A stretch of 64,000 bases of DNA from Sandarakinorhabdus cyanobacteriorum (GCF_002251755.1 NZ_NOXT01000123.1:57280-121279); one strand, 5' to 3'. Positions 37,682-40,086 are shown, numbered from the stretch's first letter. Translations and numbers: made by a program. The notes: generated by a model not told the origin, from the letters alone.

Positions 37682-37702
37682 TTTTCAGCGCCAATCAACG
37701 GG

Positions 37703-37740
37703 AAGGGCGGTCATCCGGCAGGATGGCCGCCCTTTTCGTT
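37703..37740 (+). terminator. Rho-independent terminator of petABC
   Basis: A 12-bp GC-rich stem (GGGCGGTCATCC / GGATGGCCGCCC, one G-T wobble) with the tetraloop GGCA, followed by TTTTCGTTT. It starts 22 bp after the petC stop and separates the bc1 operon from the Lgt-like/radical SAM operon. Confidence 0.88.
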
Positions 37741-37758: not shown

Positions 37759-38454
37759 GTGATTGTCGTCCCCACCGATCCCCTGTGGCACCATGTTGGC
37801 GATGCGGCCGCGTGGATGGCAGCGGCCATCGGCGGGCGCTGGGTCTATCGTCGCCGCCGCCCGGCGGTGGAGGCGCTCGCCGCCCGCACCACGCCCGGCT
37901 ATTTCCTCAGCCTGGCGCTGGGCGCGGTTGCCGGCGCCTGGCTGTTCGGCTCGCTCAATCTCAGGGCGCCATCGCACAGCATTGCCGGGGCGCTGGCCGG
38001 GGCGATTGCCGGGGTGGAGCTGTGGAAATGGCGGCATGGCGTGCGCGGCTCCACCGGCGGCCCGTTCGTGGTGCCCTTGTGCCTCGGCATCATCGTCGGC
38101 CGCTGGGGCTGCCTGTTTGCCGGCCTGCCCGATGCCACCTTCGGCATTCCCACCGGCCTGCCATGGGGCGTTGATCTGGGCGACGGCATCGCCCGGCAGC
38201 CGGTGCAGATCTATGAATCGCTGGCCATGCTGCTGTTCCTGTTGGCCTATCGTTCGGCCCTGCGCCAGGAACGGCCATGGGCGGTGCAGCATGGCTTCCA
38301 CGCCTTCGTGCTGGCCTATGCCGTGCAGCGCTTTGTCTGGGAGTTTCTCAAGCCCTATCCAAGCCTGGTCTTCTCGCTTAACCTCTTCCATCTCTTGATG
38401 ATCGGGCTTGCCGCCTATGCTCTTGTCTGGATTGCCCGCAGCCGACGTCTCTGA
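37759..38454 (+). CDS. Lgt-like (prolipoprotein diacylglyceryl transferase-like) membrane protein
   Basis: A 231-residue integral membrane protein with about six helices, resembling Lgt, which transfers a diacylglyceryl group from phosphatidylglycerol to prolipoprotein cysteines. The likeness is GRWGCLFAG at residues 114-122 (Lgt: GRxGNFxNGE) and RQPVQIYES at 146-154 (Lgt: RHPSQLYE). Two key positions differ from true Lgt: the Asn-Phe of the first motif is Cys-Leu, and the His of the second is Gln. It is also shorter than typical Lgt (260-290). It is therefore probably a paralogue with a related lipid substrate. It starts with GTG and overlaps the radical SAM gene by 38 bp. Confidence 0.75.
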   Translation: MIVVPTDPLWHHVGDAAAWMAAAIGGRWVYRRRRPAVEALAARTTPGYFLSLALGAVAGAWLFGSLNLRAPSHSIAGALAGAIAGVELWKWRHGVRGSTGGPFVVPLCLGIIVGRWGCLFAGLPDATFGIPTGLPWGVDLGDGIARQPVQIYESLAMLLFLLAYRSALRQERPWAVQHGFHAFVLAYAVQRFVWEFLKPYPSLVFSLNLFHLLMIGLAAYALVWIARSRRL

Positions 38455-39862
38455 GCGCAAGGCCGCGCCCTATATCTTCCACAGCCAGACCAGCAGCCTG
38501 TGCGAAACCTGCCTCGCCGTGGTGCCGGCCAAGGTGATCATCGAGGATGATCAGGTCTATTATCTTAAGCGCTGCCGCGAGCATGGCGTGCAGAAAACCC
38601 TGATCAGCGATGATCTGGCCTATTGGCGCGCCCAGAAGGACTGGCTGAAACCCGGCGACCGGCCGCTGACAGCGCAGACCCGAACCGAAGCCGGCTGCCC
38701 CTTTGATTGCGGCCTGTGCCCGGATCATGAACAGCACAGCTGCCTCGCCATCATGGAGATCAACCAGGCCTGCAACCTCGCCTGCCCGGTGTGCTTTGCC
38801 GATGCCGCCGATGTGCACGGCAGCCACCGCCCGCTGGCCGAGATCGAGGCGATGCTCGACGCGCTGGTCGCCAGCGAGGGCGAGCCCGATCTGCTGCAGA
38901 TTTCGGGCGGCGAACCCACCATCCACCCGCAATTCTTTGAAATCCTTGACGCGGTGAAGCGCCGGCCGATCCGCCATGTGATGATCAACACCAACGGTGT
39001 GCGCATCGCGCAGGACCCGGCCTTCGTGGCGCGGCTGGCCAGCTATGCGCCGCGGCTGGAGGTGTATCTGCAGTTCGACAGCCTGAACGATGAGGCGCTG
39101 ATCAATCTGCGCGGTGCCCGGCTCGCCCGCATCCGGCAGGCAGCGCTGGAGGCGCTGGAGCGGGTCGGCCTGTCAACCACGCTCGTCGCGGTGGTGAAGC
39201 GCGGCGTGAATGACGGGGAGGTGGCCGCCATTGTGCGCCACGCGCTCAAATGGCGTTGCGTGCGCGGCGTCACCTTCCAGCCGGTGCAGGATGCCGGGCG
39301 CAACGAGGGCTTTGATGCCAAGGCCAACCGCGTGCTGCTCAGCCAGATCCGGCGGGAGGTGGTGAAGGCCGGGGTGTTCGCCGCCGATGACATGATCCCG
39401 CTGCCCTGCAACCCCGATCAGATCTGCATCGGCTATGGCCTGCGCGATGGCGAGCGCGTGACGCCGATCACCAGCCTCTTGCCGCGCGAGCTGATCCTCA
39501 ACGGCCCCAACACCATCAGTTACGAAGCCTATCCGGCGCTGCGCGAGGCGATCTTCAACCTGCTCAGCCTCGCCACCAGCCAGTGCAACACCGAAGAAAA
39601 GCTGGCGAGTGTGCTGTGCTGCCTGCCGCAGGGGCTGGTGCCGCAGGACCTGGGCTATGCCAACAGCTTCCGGGTGGTGATCCTGCAGTTCCTTGATCGC
39701 TACAACTTCGATCTGGGCACGGTGAAGCGCAGCTGCGTGCATTTCCTCACGCCCAGCGGGGAAATCATCCCGTTCGATACCTACAACAGCTTCTATCGCC
39801 CCGGCGCCGAAGGTGCGGAGCAACTCAAGACGGCAAGGGCTGGAATGGAGACCGGGCGATGA
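38417..39862 (+). CDS. Radical SAM protein of the tetraether synthase (Tes)-like family
   Basis: A 481-residue multi-cluster radical SAM enzyme. It has a rubredoxin-like N-terminal set (Cys29, Cys32, Cys53 with His56), a cysteine cluster CPFDCGLC with C-terminal partner (Cys94, Cys98, Cys101, Cys109), and the radical SAM core CNLACPVC (Cys119, Cys123, Cys126), followed by SGGEP at 163-167. C-terminal cysteines (PCNPDQIC, SQC, LCC, SC) could hold a further cluster. This layout matches archaeal Tes/MJ0619-type enzymes, which couple lipid tails into membrane-spanning lipids. Substrate here is unknown. The ATG at 38417 overlaps the Lgt-like gene; a small membrane protein follows with a 4-bp overlap. 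Confidence 0.82.
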   Translation: MLLSGLPAADVSERKAAPYIFHSQTSSLCETCLAVVPAKVIIEDDQVYYLKRCREHGVQKTLISDDLAYWRAQKDWLKPGDRPLTAQTRTEAGCPFDCGLCPDHEQHSCLAIMEINQACNLACPVCFADAADVHGSHRPLAEIEAMLDALVASEGEPDLLQISGGEPTIHPQFFEILDAVKRRPIRHVMINTNGVRIAQDPAFVARLASYAPRLEVYLQFDSLNDEALINLRGARLARIRQAALEALERVGLSTTLVAVVKRGVNDGEVAAIVRHALKWRCVRGVTFQPVQDAGRNEGFDAKANRVLLSQIRREVVKAGVFAADDMIPLPCNPDQICIGYGLRDGERVTPITSLLPRELILNGPNTISYEAYPALREAIFNLLSLATSQCNTEEKLASVLCCLPQGLVPQDLGYANSFRVVILQFLDRYNFDLGTVKRSCVHFLTPSGEIIPFDTYNSFYRPGAEGAEQLKTARAGMETGR

Positions 39863-40086
39863 GAAACATGTTTGCCGGTCTCCTGATGGCGCTGGGGCTG
39901 ATGATCTGCGGCACCAGCGGCCTCTGCTCGGCCTGGTTCCTGGGCATGACGCTGTTCGACTCTAACCAGAACGGCGCCCAGGCTGTGCTGGGCACGATTG
40001 GCATGGTCAGCGTGTTTGGCGGTGTGCCATTCGGCGTTGGCGTGTTGCTGTATCTGCTGGGTCGGCGCCTGGCCCGCGAGCGGTAA
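39859..40086 (+). CDS. Small hypothetical membrane protein
   Basis: A 75-residue protein with two hydrophobic segments (about residues 5-29 and 44-67) and a basic end (RRLARER), so probably two helices with the ends in the cytoplasm. No family is recognised. Its ATG overlaps the radical SAM stop by 4 bp, so it is made from the same message and may hold or assist that enzyme at the membrane. The next gene is convergent, 4 bp away. Confidence 0.65.
   Translation: MRNMFAGLLMALGLMICGTSGLCSAWFLGMTLFDSNQNGAQAVLGTIGMVSVFGGVPFGVGVLLYLLGRRLARER

Follow-up and report, generated by a model that had tools for sequence, protein, structure and literature searches.

A 64,000-nucleotide stretch of the Sandarakinorhabdus cyanobacteriorum genome (NZ_NOXT01000123.1, 57280-121279; hereafter the window) carries, at positions 37759-40086 of its plus strand, three overlapping open reading frames (ORFs) that encode an Lgt-like integral membrane protein, a radical S-adenosylmethionine (SAM) enzyme of the Tes/Trs superfamily and a small two-helix membrane protein. 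We find that these genes form a genuine, self-contained unit, and we tentatively propose, with somewhat less than even confidence, that the small proteins are substrates lipidated by the two enzymes at the cysteine of a G-x-C motif. An earlier reading of this DNA (the original prediction) placed three same-strand overlapping genes here, and all of the ORFs were confirmed: the Lgt-like and radical SAM genes overlap by 38 bp, and the radical SAM and small-protein genes by 4 bp.

Linkage among the three genes is obligate. The radical SAM gene occurs in 10 of 301 genomes of the order, and the Lgt-like gene occurs in the identical 10 and in no others; at the nine of these loci besides the window, the two genes are adjacent and overlap or nearly do so. 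Assuming independence, the chance of such identical genome sets is about 7e-19, which is a measure of linkage and not of independent gains because both enzyme genes travel as one unit. A scan of public genomes yielded 80 loci, chiefly in Alphaproteobacteria, with Sphingomonas, Novosphingobium, Caulobacter, Phenylobacterium, Reyranella, Bradyrhizobium, Rhodoplanes and Tabrizicola among the genera. The Lgt-like gene adjoins the radical SAM gene at 78 of these loci (the remaining two start at contig ends), and all 80 loci have a small-protein gene alongside. When 289 genomes of the class were searched in reverse with the Lgt-like profile, two further strong matches emerged, both with an adjacent radical SAM gene. 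The co-occurrence anticipated by the original prediction was thus found.

The small membrane protein had been taken for an accessory. It is instead a regular cassette partner, and the pattern of its copies suggests that it is the substrate as well. The window copy consists of two hydrophobic helices in 75 amino acids (aa). Assignment to a known family was rejected, as no Pfam model matches the small proteins above its cut-off and the Holin-X-type (E 0.0005-0.009) and Claudin_2 (0.17) matches are all sub-threshold. A hidden Markov model (HMM) profile of the family has 129 matches near cassettes, all on the cassette strand, versus 0 in 611 kb of flanks, and a search of the window's genome found no further copies. 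At least two copies are present at 37 of the 80 loci, in runs of up to five ORFs, and each cassette with multiple small genes keeps single enzyme genes. The tandem copies have diverged to a median identity of about 31%. In Bradyrhizobium sp. BTAi1 (L096, 8398-10214), the run comprises five or more successive ORFs of the family, one of which (268 aa) apparently consists of several fused copies.

Among 133 aligned small proteins, the best-kept residues are one Cys (127 of 133) and a Gly three alignment columns earlier (122 of 133). The motif appears as G-L-C, G-G-C or G-A-C, and two glycines are also kept in helix 2. In 84 of the 127 proteins that have this Cys, it stands 20 or 21 residues after the last basic residue (quartiles of the distance 20 and 21), and a median of 11 residues follows before the next charge, which is usually acidic. 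By the positive-inside rule, the helix would cross from inside to outside with the Cys closer to the outer face, the position in which a lipoprotein precursor offers its cysteine. Single enzyme genes, many diverged copies and a near-invariant Cys together suggest that the small proteins are substrates.

The Lgt-like protein belongs to the Lgt family (PF01790, 55.3 bits; gathering cut-off 24.9). It aligns with canonical Lgt over 223 columns in hhalign (probability 98.7%, E 2e-16), and its AlphaFold2 model (predicted local distance difference test score, pLDDT, 94.8) has seven long helices, a feature shared with Lgt. It is shorter than Lgt, and it scores 16.7 bits against the Lgt equivalog TIGR00544, under the cut-off of 118.9. 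Equivalents of E. coli Lgt residues R143, E202, Y235, R239 and E243 are kept in 34 of 34 aligned Lgt-like proteins. In the E. coli enzyme R143 and R239 bind lipid, and R239 and E243 are both intolerant to mutation (PMC4728403). Position N146 is an invariant Cys in every aligned protein (residue 118, window 38110-38112); as a separate observation, this Cys replaces a residue of the phosphatidylglycerol (PG) network and could be catalytic or an acyl carrier. A canonical lgt gene lies elsewhere in the window's genome and in all 11 of the other cassette genomes tested.

The middle gene encodes an N-terminal, rubredoxin-like zinc ribbon (PF23545) followed by a radical SAM domain (PF04055). The Tes-like cysteine layout originally described for this protein held up in full, with all sites present and invariant in 36 aligned relatives; C334 and C443 are invariant in these as well. 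One of the closest known systems is GDGT-MAS, the Tes of M. jannaschii (MJ0619, PDB 7TOL), which shares the domain order, the CxxxCxxC core and the whole-chain fold. The spacing of the rubredoxin-like site equals the C9X2C12X20C33X2H36 of GDGT-MAS (PMC9433317), and the N-terminal cluster (C97-x3-C101-x2-C104-x2-H107) repeats its CxxxCxxCxxH 4Fe-4S motif, formed there by C73, C77, C80 and a His; this motif is lost in actinobacterial relatives. By sequence, 7TOL is the nearest solved structure (E 2e-59). It is also the first Foldseek match to the predicted model over the whole chain (E 1.3e-32, template-modelling score 0.73); matches to peptide and other radical SAM enzymes are confined to the core. 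The model has a pLDDT of 78 and is weak at residues 81-109 and 366-393, including the surroundings of the N-terminal cluster.

Unlike GDGT-MAS, the cassette enzyme has the extra cysteines Cys112 and Cys404/405 and is encoded beside Lgt-like and small-protein genes. Both cysteine additions are features of Trs-type enzymes: TrsS, a radical SAM (seleno)protein paired with a DVU_1556-type methyltransferase, has an H-x-C before the core and a C-terminal CC. TrsS (NF045646) is also the best full-length HMM match at 299.4 bits, under its cut-off of 490, and the Tes equivalog (NF045702) gives 264.6 bits, under its cut-off of 450. The cassette enzyme thus has a Tes-like fold and extra cysteines nearer to those of Trs, and by the curated cut-offs it belongs to neither Tes nor TrsS. 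The Tes-like assignment of the original prediction therefore stands at the level of superfamily and fold, and not at that of Tes itself. In a tree of Tes, Trs and cassette enzymes we used only the cassette grouping, since the deep branching order is unreliable, owing to long branches and an incomplete Tes row. A selenoprotein was also considered and rejected, as the single internal TGA noted in relatives of 85% identity is an ordinary terminal stop read through by one residue; no selenocysteine codon was found among the sphingomonad genes examined.

These comparisons bear on two further explanations. A true Tes function, in which the enzyme would be a bacterial tetraether or tetraester synthase making membrane-spanning lipids, fits the superfamily and the fold and has been suggested in print for proteobacterial homologues (PMC8941075). 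We consider it very unlikely, given the shortfall against the Tes equivalog (265 versus 450 bits), cassette partners that are unlike known tetraether pathways, and the replacement of Met439 and Tyr459. These two residues are completely conserved in the archaeal enzymes (PMC9433317); their positions are L426 and F446 in the window protein, and Leu, Val or Ser and Phe in relatives from Pseudomonadota. The M439A variant of GDGT-MAS stays active (PMC9433317), so loss of the Met alone is compatible with coupling chemistry. Slightly more improbable still, in our estimate, is a Trs-like redox or cofactor pathway that has a small molecule as its substrate and in which the Lgt-like protein would take the place of the Trs methyltransferase. 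The TrsS match and the shared H-x-C and CC cysteines speak for it, as does the methyltransferase adjoining plasmid-borne Trs-type relatives, which in M. vanbaalenii is of DVU_1556 type. However, the TrsS cut-off is missed, the window and the mapped cassettes have no adjacent methyltransferase of this type and no methyltransferase within the cassettes, and Trs itself has no established role.

In the mechanism that we propose, the simplest one to draw on all the observations, the small two-helix protein would be the substrate, presenting its Cys about 20 residues past the cytosolic end of the helix, as in lipoprotein precursors. The Lgt-like protein would bind a PG-type lipid through its retained arginines and put a lipid group on the G-x-C Cys or next to it; it is the retained PG site that suggests delivery of lipid to this residue. 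The Tes-type radical SAM enzyme, at the cytosolic face, would remove a hydrogen from an unactivated carbon, either in the lipid tail or in the adduct, and form a C-C or C-S bond. Its likeness to Tes suggests that radical chemistry joins an unactivated carbon, for which a lipid tail is the most natural place. The finished small protein would carry an unusual lipid anchor, perhaps cross-linked. The Tes-type fold, the Lgt relative and the conserved synteny partly support the lipid-altering system of the original prediction, and neither of the results named there as refutations, a structure model in a peptide- or cofactor-modifying radical SAM group or lost synteny in relatives, emerged; we infer that lipid is what is altered, as we do the substrate role of the small protein, the Cys as the site, the lipid nature of the modification, the radical step on the lipid and the order of the steps.

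Several observations weigh against this proposal. His103 of the Lgt HGG motif is never kept (V, E, A or L in 34 of 34 Lgt-like proteins), E151 is replaced, and R246 is Lys in all 34; E. coli Lgt is inactive when H103, E151 or R246 is mutated, R246K being one such mutation (PMC4728403). With H103 and E151 lost, the Lgt reaction cannot simply be assumed, and classical diacylglyceryl transfer may not occur. A Foldseek search with the Lgt-like model, run with no positive control, returned no E. coli Lgt entry, though 5AZB is in the sequence set, and its top matches were unrelated membrane proteins with E near 1. On the side of the small proteins, G-x-C is not the lipobox [LVI][ASTVI][GAS]C with a polar mature chain behind it: the window protein reads S-G-L-C, with hydrophobic residues after the Cys. 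The Cys is missing from 6 of the 133 aligned proteins, some of which come from fused or duplicated ORFs. Small proteins of the actinobacterial cassettes described below have no detectable homology to those of Alphaproteobacteria and resemble them only in the motif and where it lies. Furthermore, the radical SAM enzyme is soluble and on the cytosolic side, and the Cys is predicted near the outer face. Since the PG residues are kept, the catalytic ones are lost and a normal Lgt coexists, we suggest that the lipid site has been kept and that the reaction or the acceptor has changed.

The universal loss of Lgt His103, and the likeness of tandem short precursor-like genes beside a radical SAM gene to clusters for ribosomally synthesized and post-translationally modified peptides (RiPPs), would also suit peptide-directed radical chemistry that involves no lipid. 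Here a thioether, methylation or crosslink would form at the G-x-C Cys, and the Lgt-like protein would serve only as a membrane carrier or recognition subunit. We judge this quite unlikely: the enzyme that its fold matches over the whole chain acts on lipids, peptide radical SAM enzymes matching the core only, profile scans matched no SPASM domain or RiPP recognition element model, and the PG-binding residues of the Lgt-like protein are strictly conserved.

Remodelling of free lipids is a stronger competitor, if an unlikely one. The radical SAM enzyme would couple or alter phospholipid acyl chains, the Lgt-like protein would be a lipid transferase or presenter, and the small hairpins would be membrane scaffolds whose Cys is structural or metal-binding. 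The Tes fold and the retained PG-site arginines are consistent with this, GDGT-MAS binds E. coli phospholipids (PMC9433317), and membrane-spanning lipids have been proposed for bacterial Tes homologues (PMC8941075). However, it leaves unexplained the tandem small proteins with a near-invariant Cys and little else conserved, and the Tes-specific Met439 and Tyr459 are absent.

The cassette looks mobile and horizontally spread, given its sporadic presence and changing flanks. Most flanking genes at sphingomonad loci have no counterpart at other loci, and the cassette was not found in three sampled genomes of the window's own genus. Similar trios occur in bacteria of at least three phyla, Bacteroidota and Actinomycetota among them. 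All cassette parts occur in three genomes outside Alphaproteobacteria and within its phylum (L119-L121). A plasmid of Persicobacter (Bacteroidota) carries an Lgt-like gene, a radical SAM gene (product 48% identical) and a gene for a 59-aa two-helix protein ending in GTGICGSLLS. Plasmids of Mycobacterium avium and M. branderi and a Nonomuraea replicon carry a gene of the Lgt family together with a distant enzyme (29-33% identical) and one or two small membrane proteins. The small-protein tail in these Actinobacteria reads S/T-A/G-G-x-C-T-G-L/I-N-P, with TVGVCTGLNP in one M. branderi copy. In both the Persicobacter and the Mycobacterium/Nonomuraea proteins, the motif falls at the end of the helix that follows the basic residues.

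Some of the loci deserve separate mention. On M. avium and M. branderi plasmids, the loci L124 (3201-6521) and L128 (3331-6524) pair an Lgt-family gene and two small membrane proteins ending in x-G-x-C-T-G-L-N-P with a distant Tes/Trs enzyme without the cysteines of the N-terminal cluster. The arrangement on plasmids of Mycolicibacterium vanbaalenii and haloarchaea is that of Trs, a Trs-type radical SAM gene directly before a methyltransferase (DVU_1556 type in M. vanbaalenii) with no Lgt-like gene; such pairs lie at L125 4899-7177, L127 3974-6084 and L123 4971-7339. Near the Trs-type genes are DUF547 and redoxin genes in the haloarchaeal copies, and CcdA and disulfide oxidoreductase genes in the M. 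vanbaalenii copy. Two records labelled Planctomycetes, L035 and L082, hold cassette copies 78% and 64% identical to that of the window. L035 looks like a bin contaminated by a sphingomonad, and L082, a metagenome-assembled genome (MAG) with the gene order reversed, may be a real transfer. In an alphaproteobacterial MAG (L098, 6688-6996), the small-protein gene does not come last: the Lgt-like and radical SAM genes stand on either side of it.

Tes-family enzymes in Proteobacteria are already known (PMC8941075), and bacterial Tes homologues, those of Proteobacteria included, have been described, with the guess that their products are membrane-spanning lipids (PMC8941075, PMC9433317, PMC11868695). 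The membrane-spanning lipid synthase Mss (PMC11868695), which we compared by description only, is likewise proposed to couple acyl chains in bacteria; unlike the cassette, it is known from other phyla, for the most part in anaerobic settings. No paper in the openly available literature that we searched connects Tes homologues with an Lgt-like gene or with small membrane proteins, and none there treats Tes in Sphingomonas. The gene combination and the small-protein family therefore appear undescribed, while both enzymes belong to known superfamilies.

Bacterial Tes homologues, known since 2022, have lacked an assigned role; through the cassette, one clade of them gains two constant partners and one testable residue. 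If our proposal is true, it would describe a new kind of protein-lipid modification, with radical SAM chemistry acting on membrane proteins. A bolder version, which we think rather unlikely, is a second bacterial route of protein lipidation apart from the Lgt pathway, in which the G-x-C Cys of small inner-membrane proteins would receive a Tes-altered or cross-linked lipid, possibly giving membrane-spanning proteolipids, and which a mobile cassette would carry across phyla. Cassette hosts include cultivable mesophiles (Sphingomonas, Novosphingobium, Bradyrhizobium, Caulobacter). A 'Tes homologue' in Alphaproteobacteria should not be taken as evidence of the production of branched glycerol dialkyl glycerol tetraethers.

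Table 1. Features of the cassette and its upstream boundary (window positions)
Feature	Position	Strand	Remarks
GC-rich hairpin with short T run, between petC1 and cassette	37698..37739	+	probable petABC terminator
Lgt-like integral membrane protein	37759..38454	+	GTG start, 231 aa, seven long helices in model
R115..C118 codons of Lgt-like protein	38101..38112	+	R143 kept, N146 replaced by Cys; 34/34 each
R191..E195 codons of Lgt-like protein	38329..38343	+	R239 and E243 of E. coli Lgt; 34/34 invariant
Tes/Trs-superfamily radical SAM enzyme	38417..39862	+	ATG start, 481 aa; alternative in-frame TTG at 38408 (484 aa)
Rubredoxin-like site C32-x2-C35-x20-C56-x2-H59	38501..38584	+	invariant in 36 relatives
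N-terminal auxiliary cluster CPFDCGLCPDH (C97, C101, C104, H107)	38696..38728	+	invariant in 36 relatives
QHSC motif, Cys112	38732..38743	+	invariant; H-x-C in Trs-type enzymes, STTI in Tes
Radical SAM cluster CNLACPVC, CxxxCxxC (C122-x3-C126-x2-C129)	38771..38794	+	invariant in 36 relatives
Cys404-Cys405 pair, C-terminal domain	39617..39622	+	invariant in 36 relatives; present in Trs-type enzymes, absent from M. jannaschii Tes
Small two-helix membrane protein, proposed substrate	39859..40086	+	75 aa; family beside all 80 loci
G-L-C codons, Gly21-Leu22-Cys23 of small protein	39919..39927	+	G 122/133, C 127/133 in alignment

Other readings of the locus were tried and set aside. A defence system was rejected, as the PADLOC matches are to the generic radical SAM core of viperins only. 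Base composition was uninformative about recent import, the G+C content of the cassette (65.5%) being near the window mean (67.3%, standard deviation 2.1). A link to petABC was rejected because other genomes have different flanking genes. The 'clear terminator' said to separate the cassette from petABC is worded slightly too strongly: the hairpin after petC1 is not among the calls of a consensus terminator scan, since the few Ts that it has fall within the stem, in a short run, and it is no textbook terminator. The hairpin itself is real, its region folding at -49.7 kcal/mol (z = -6.3).

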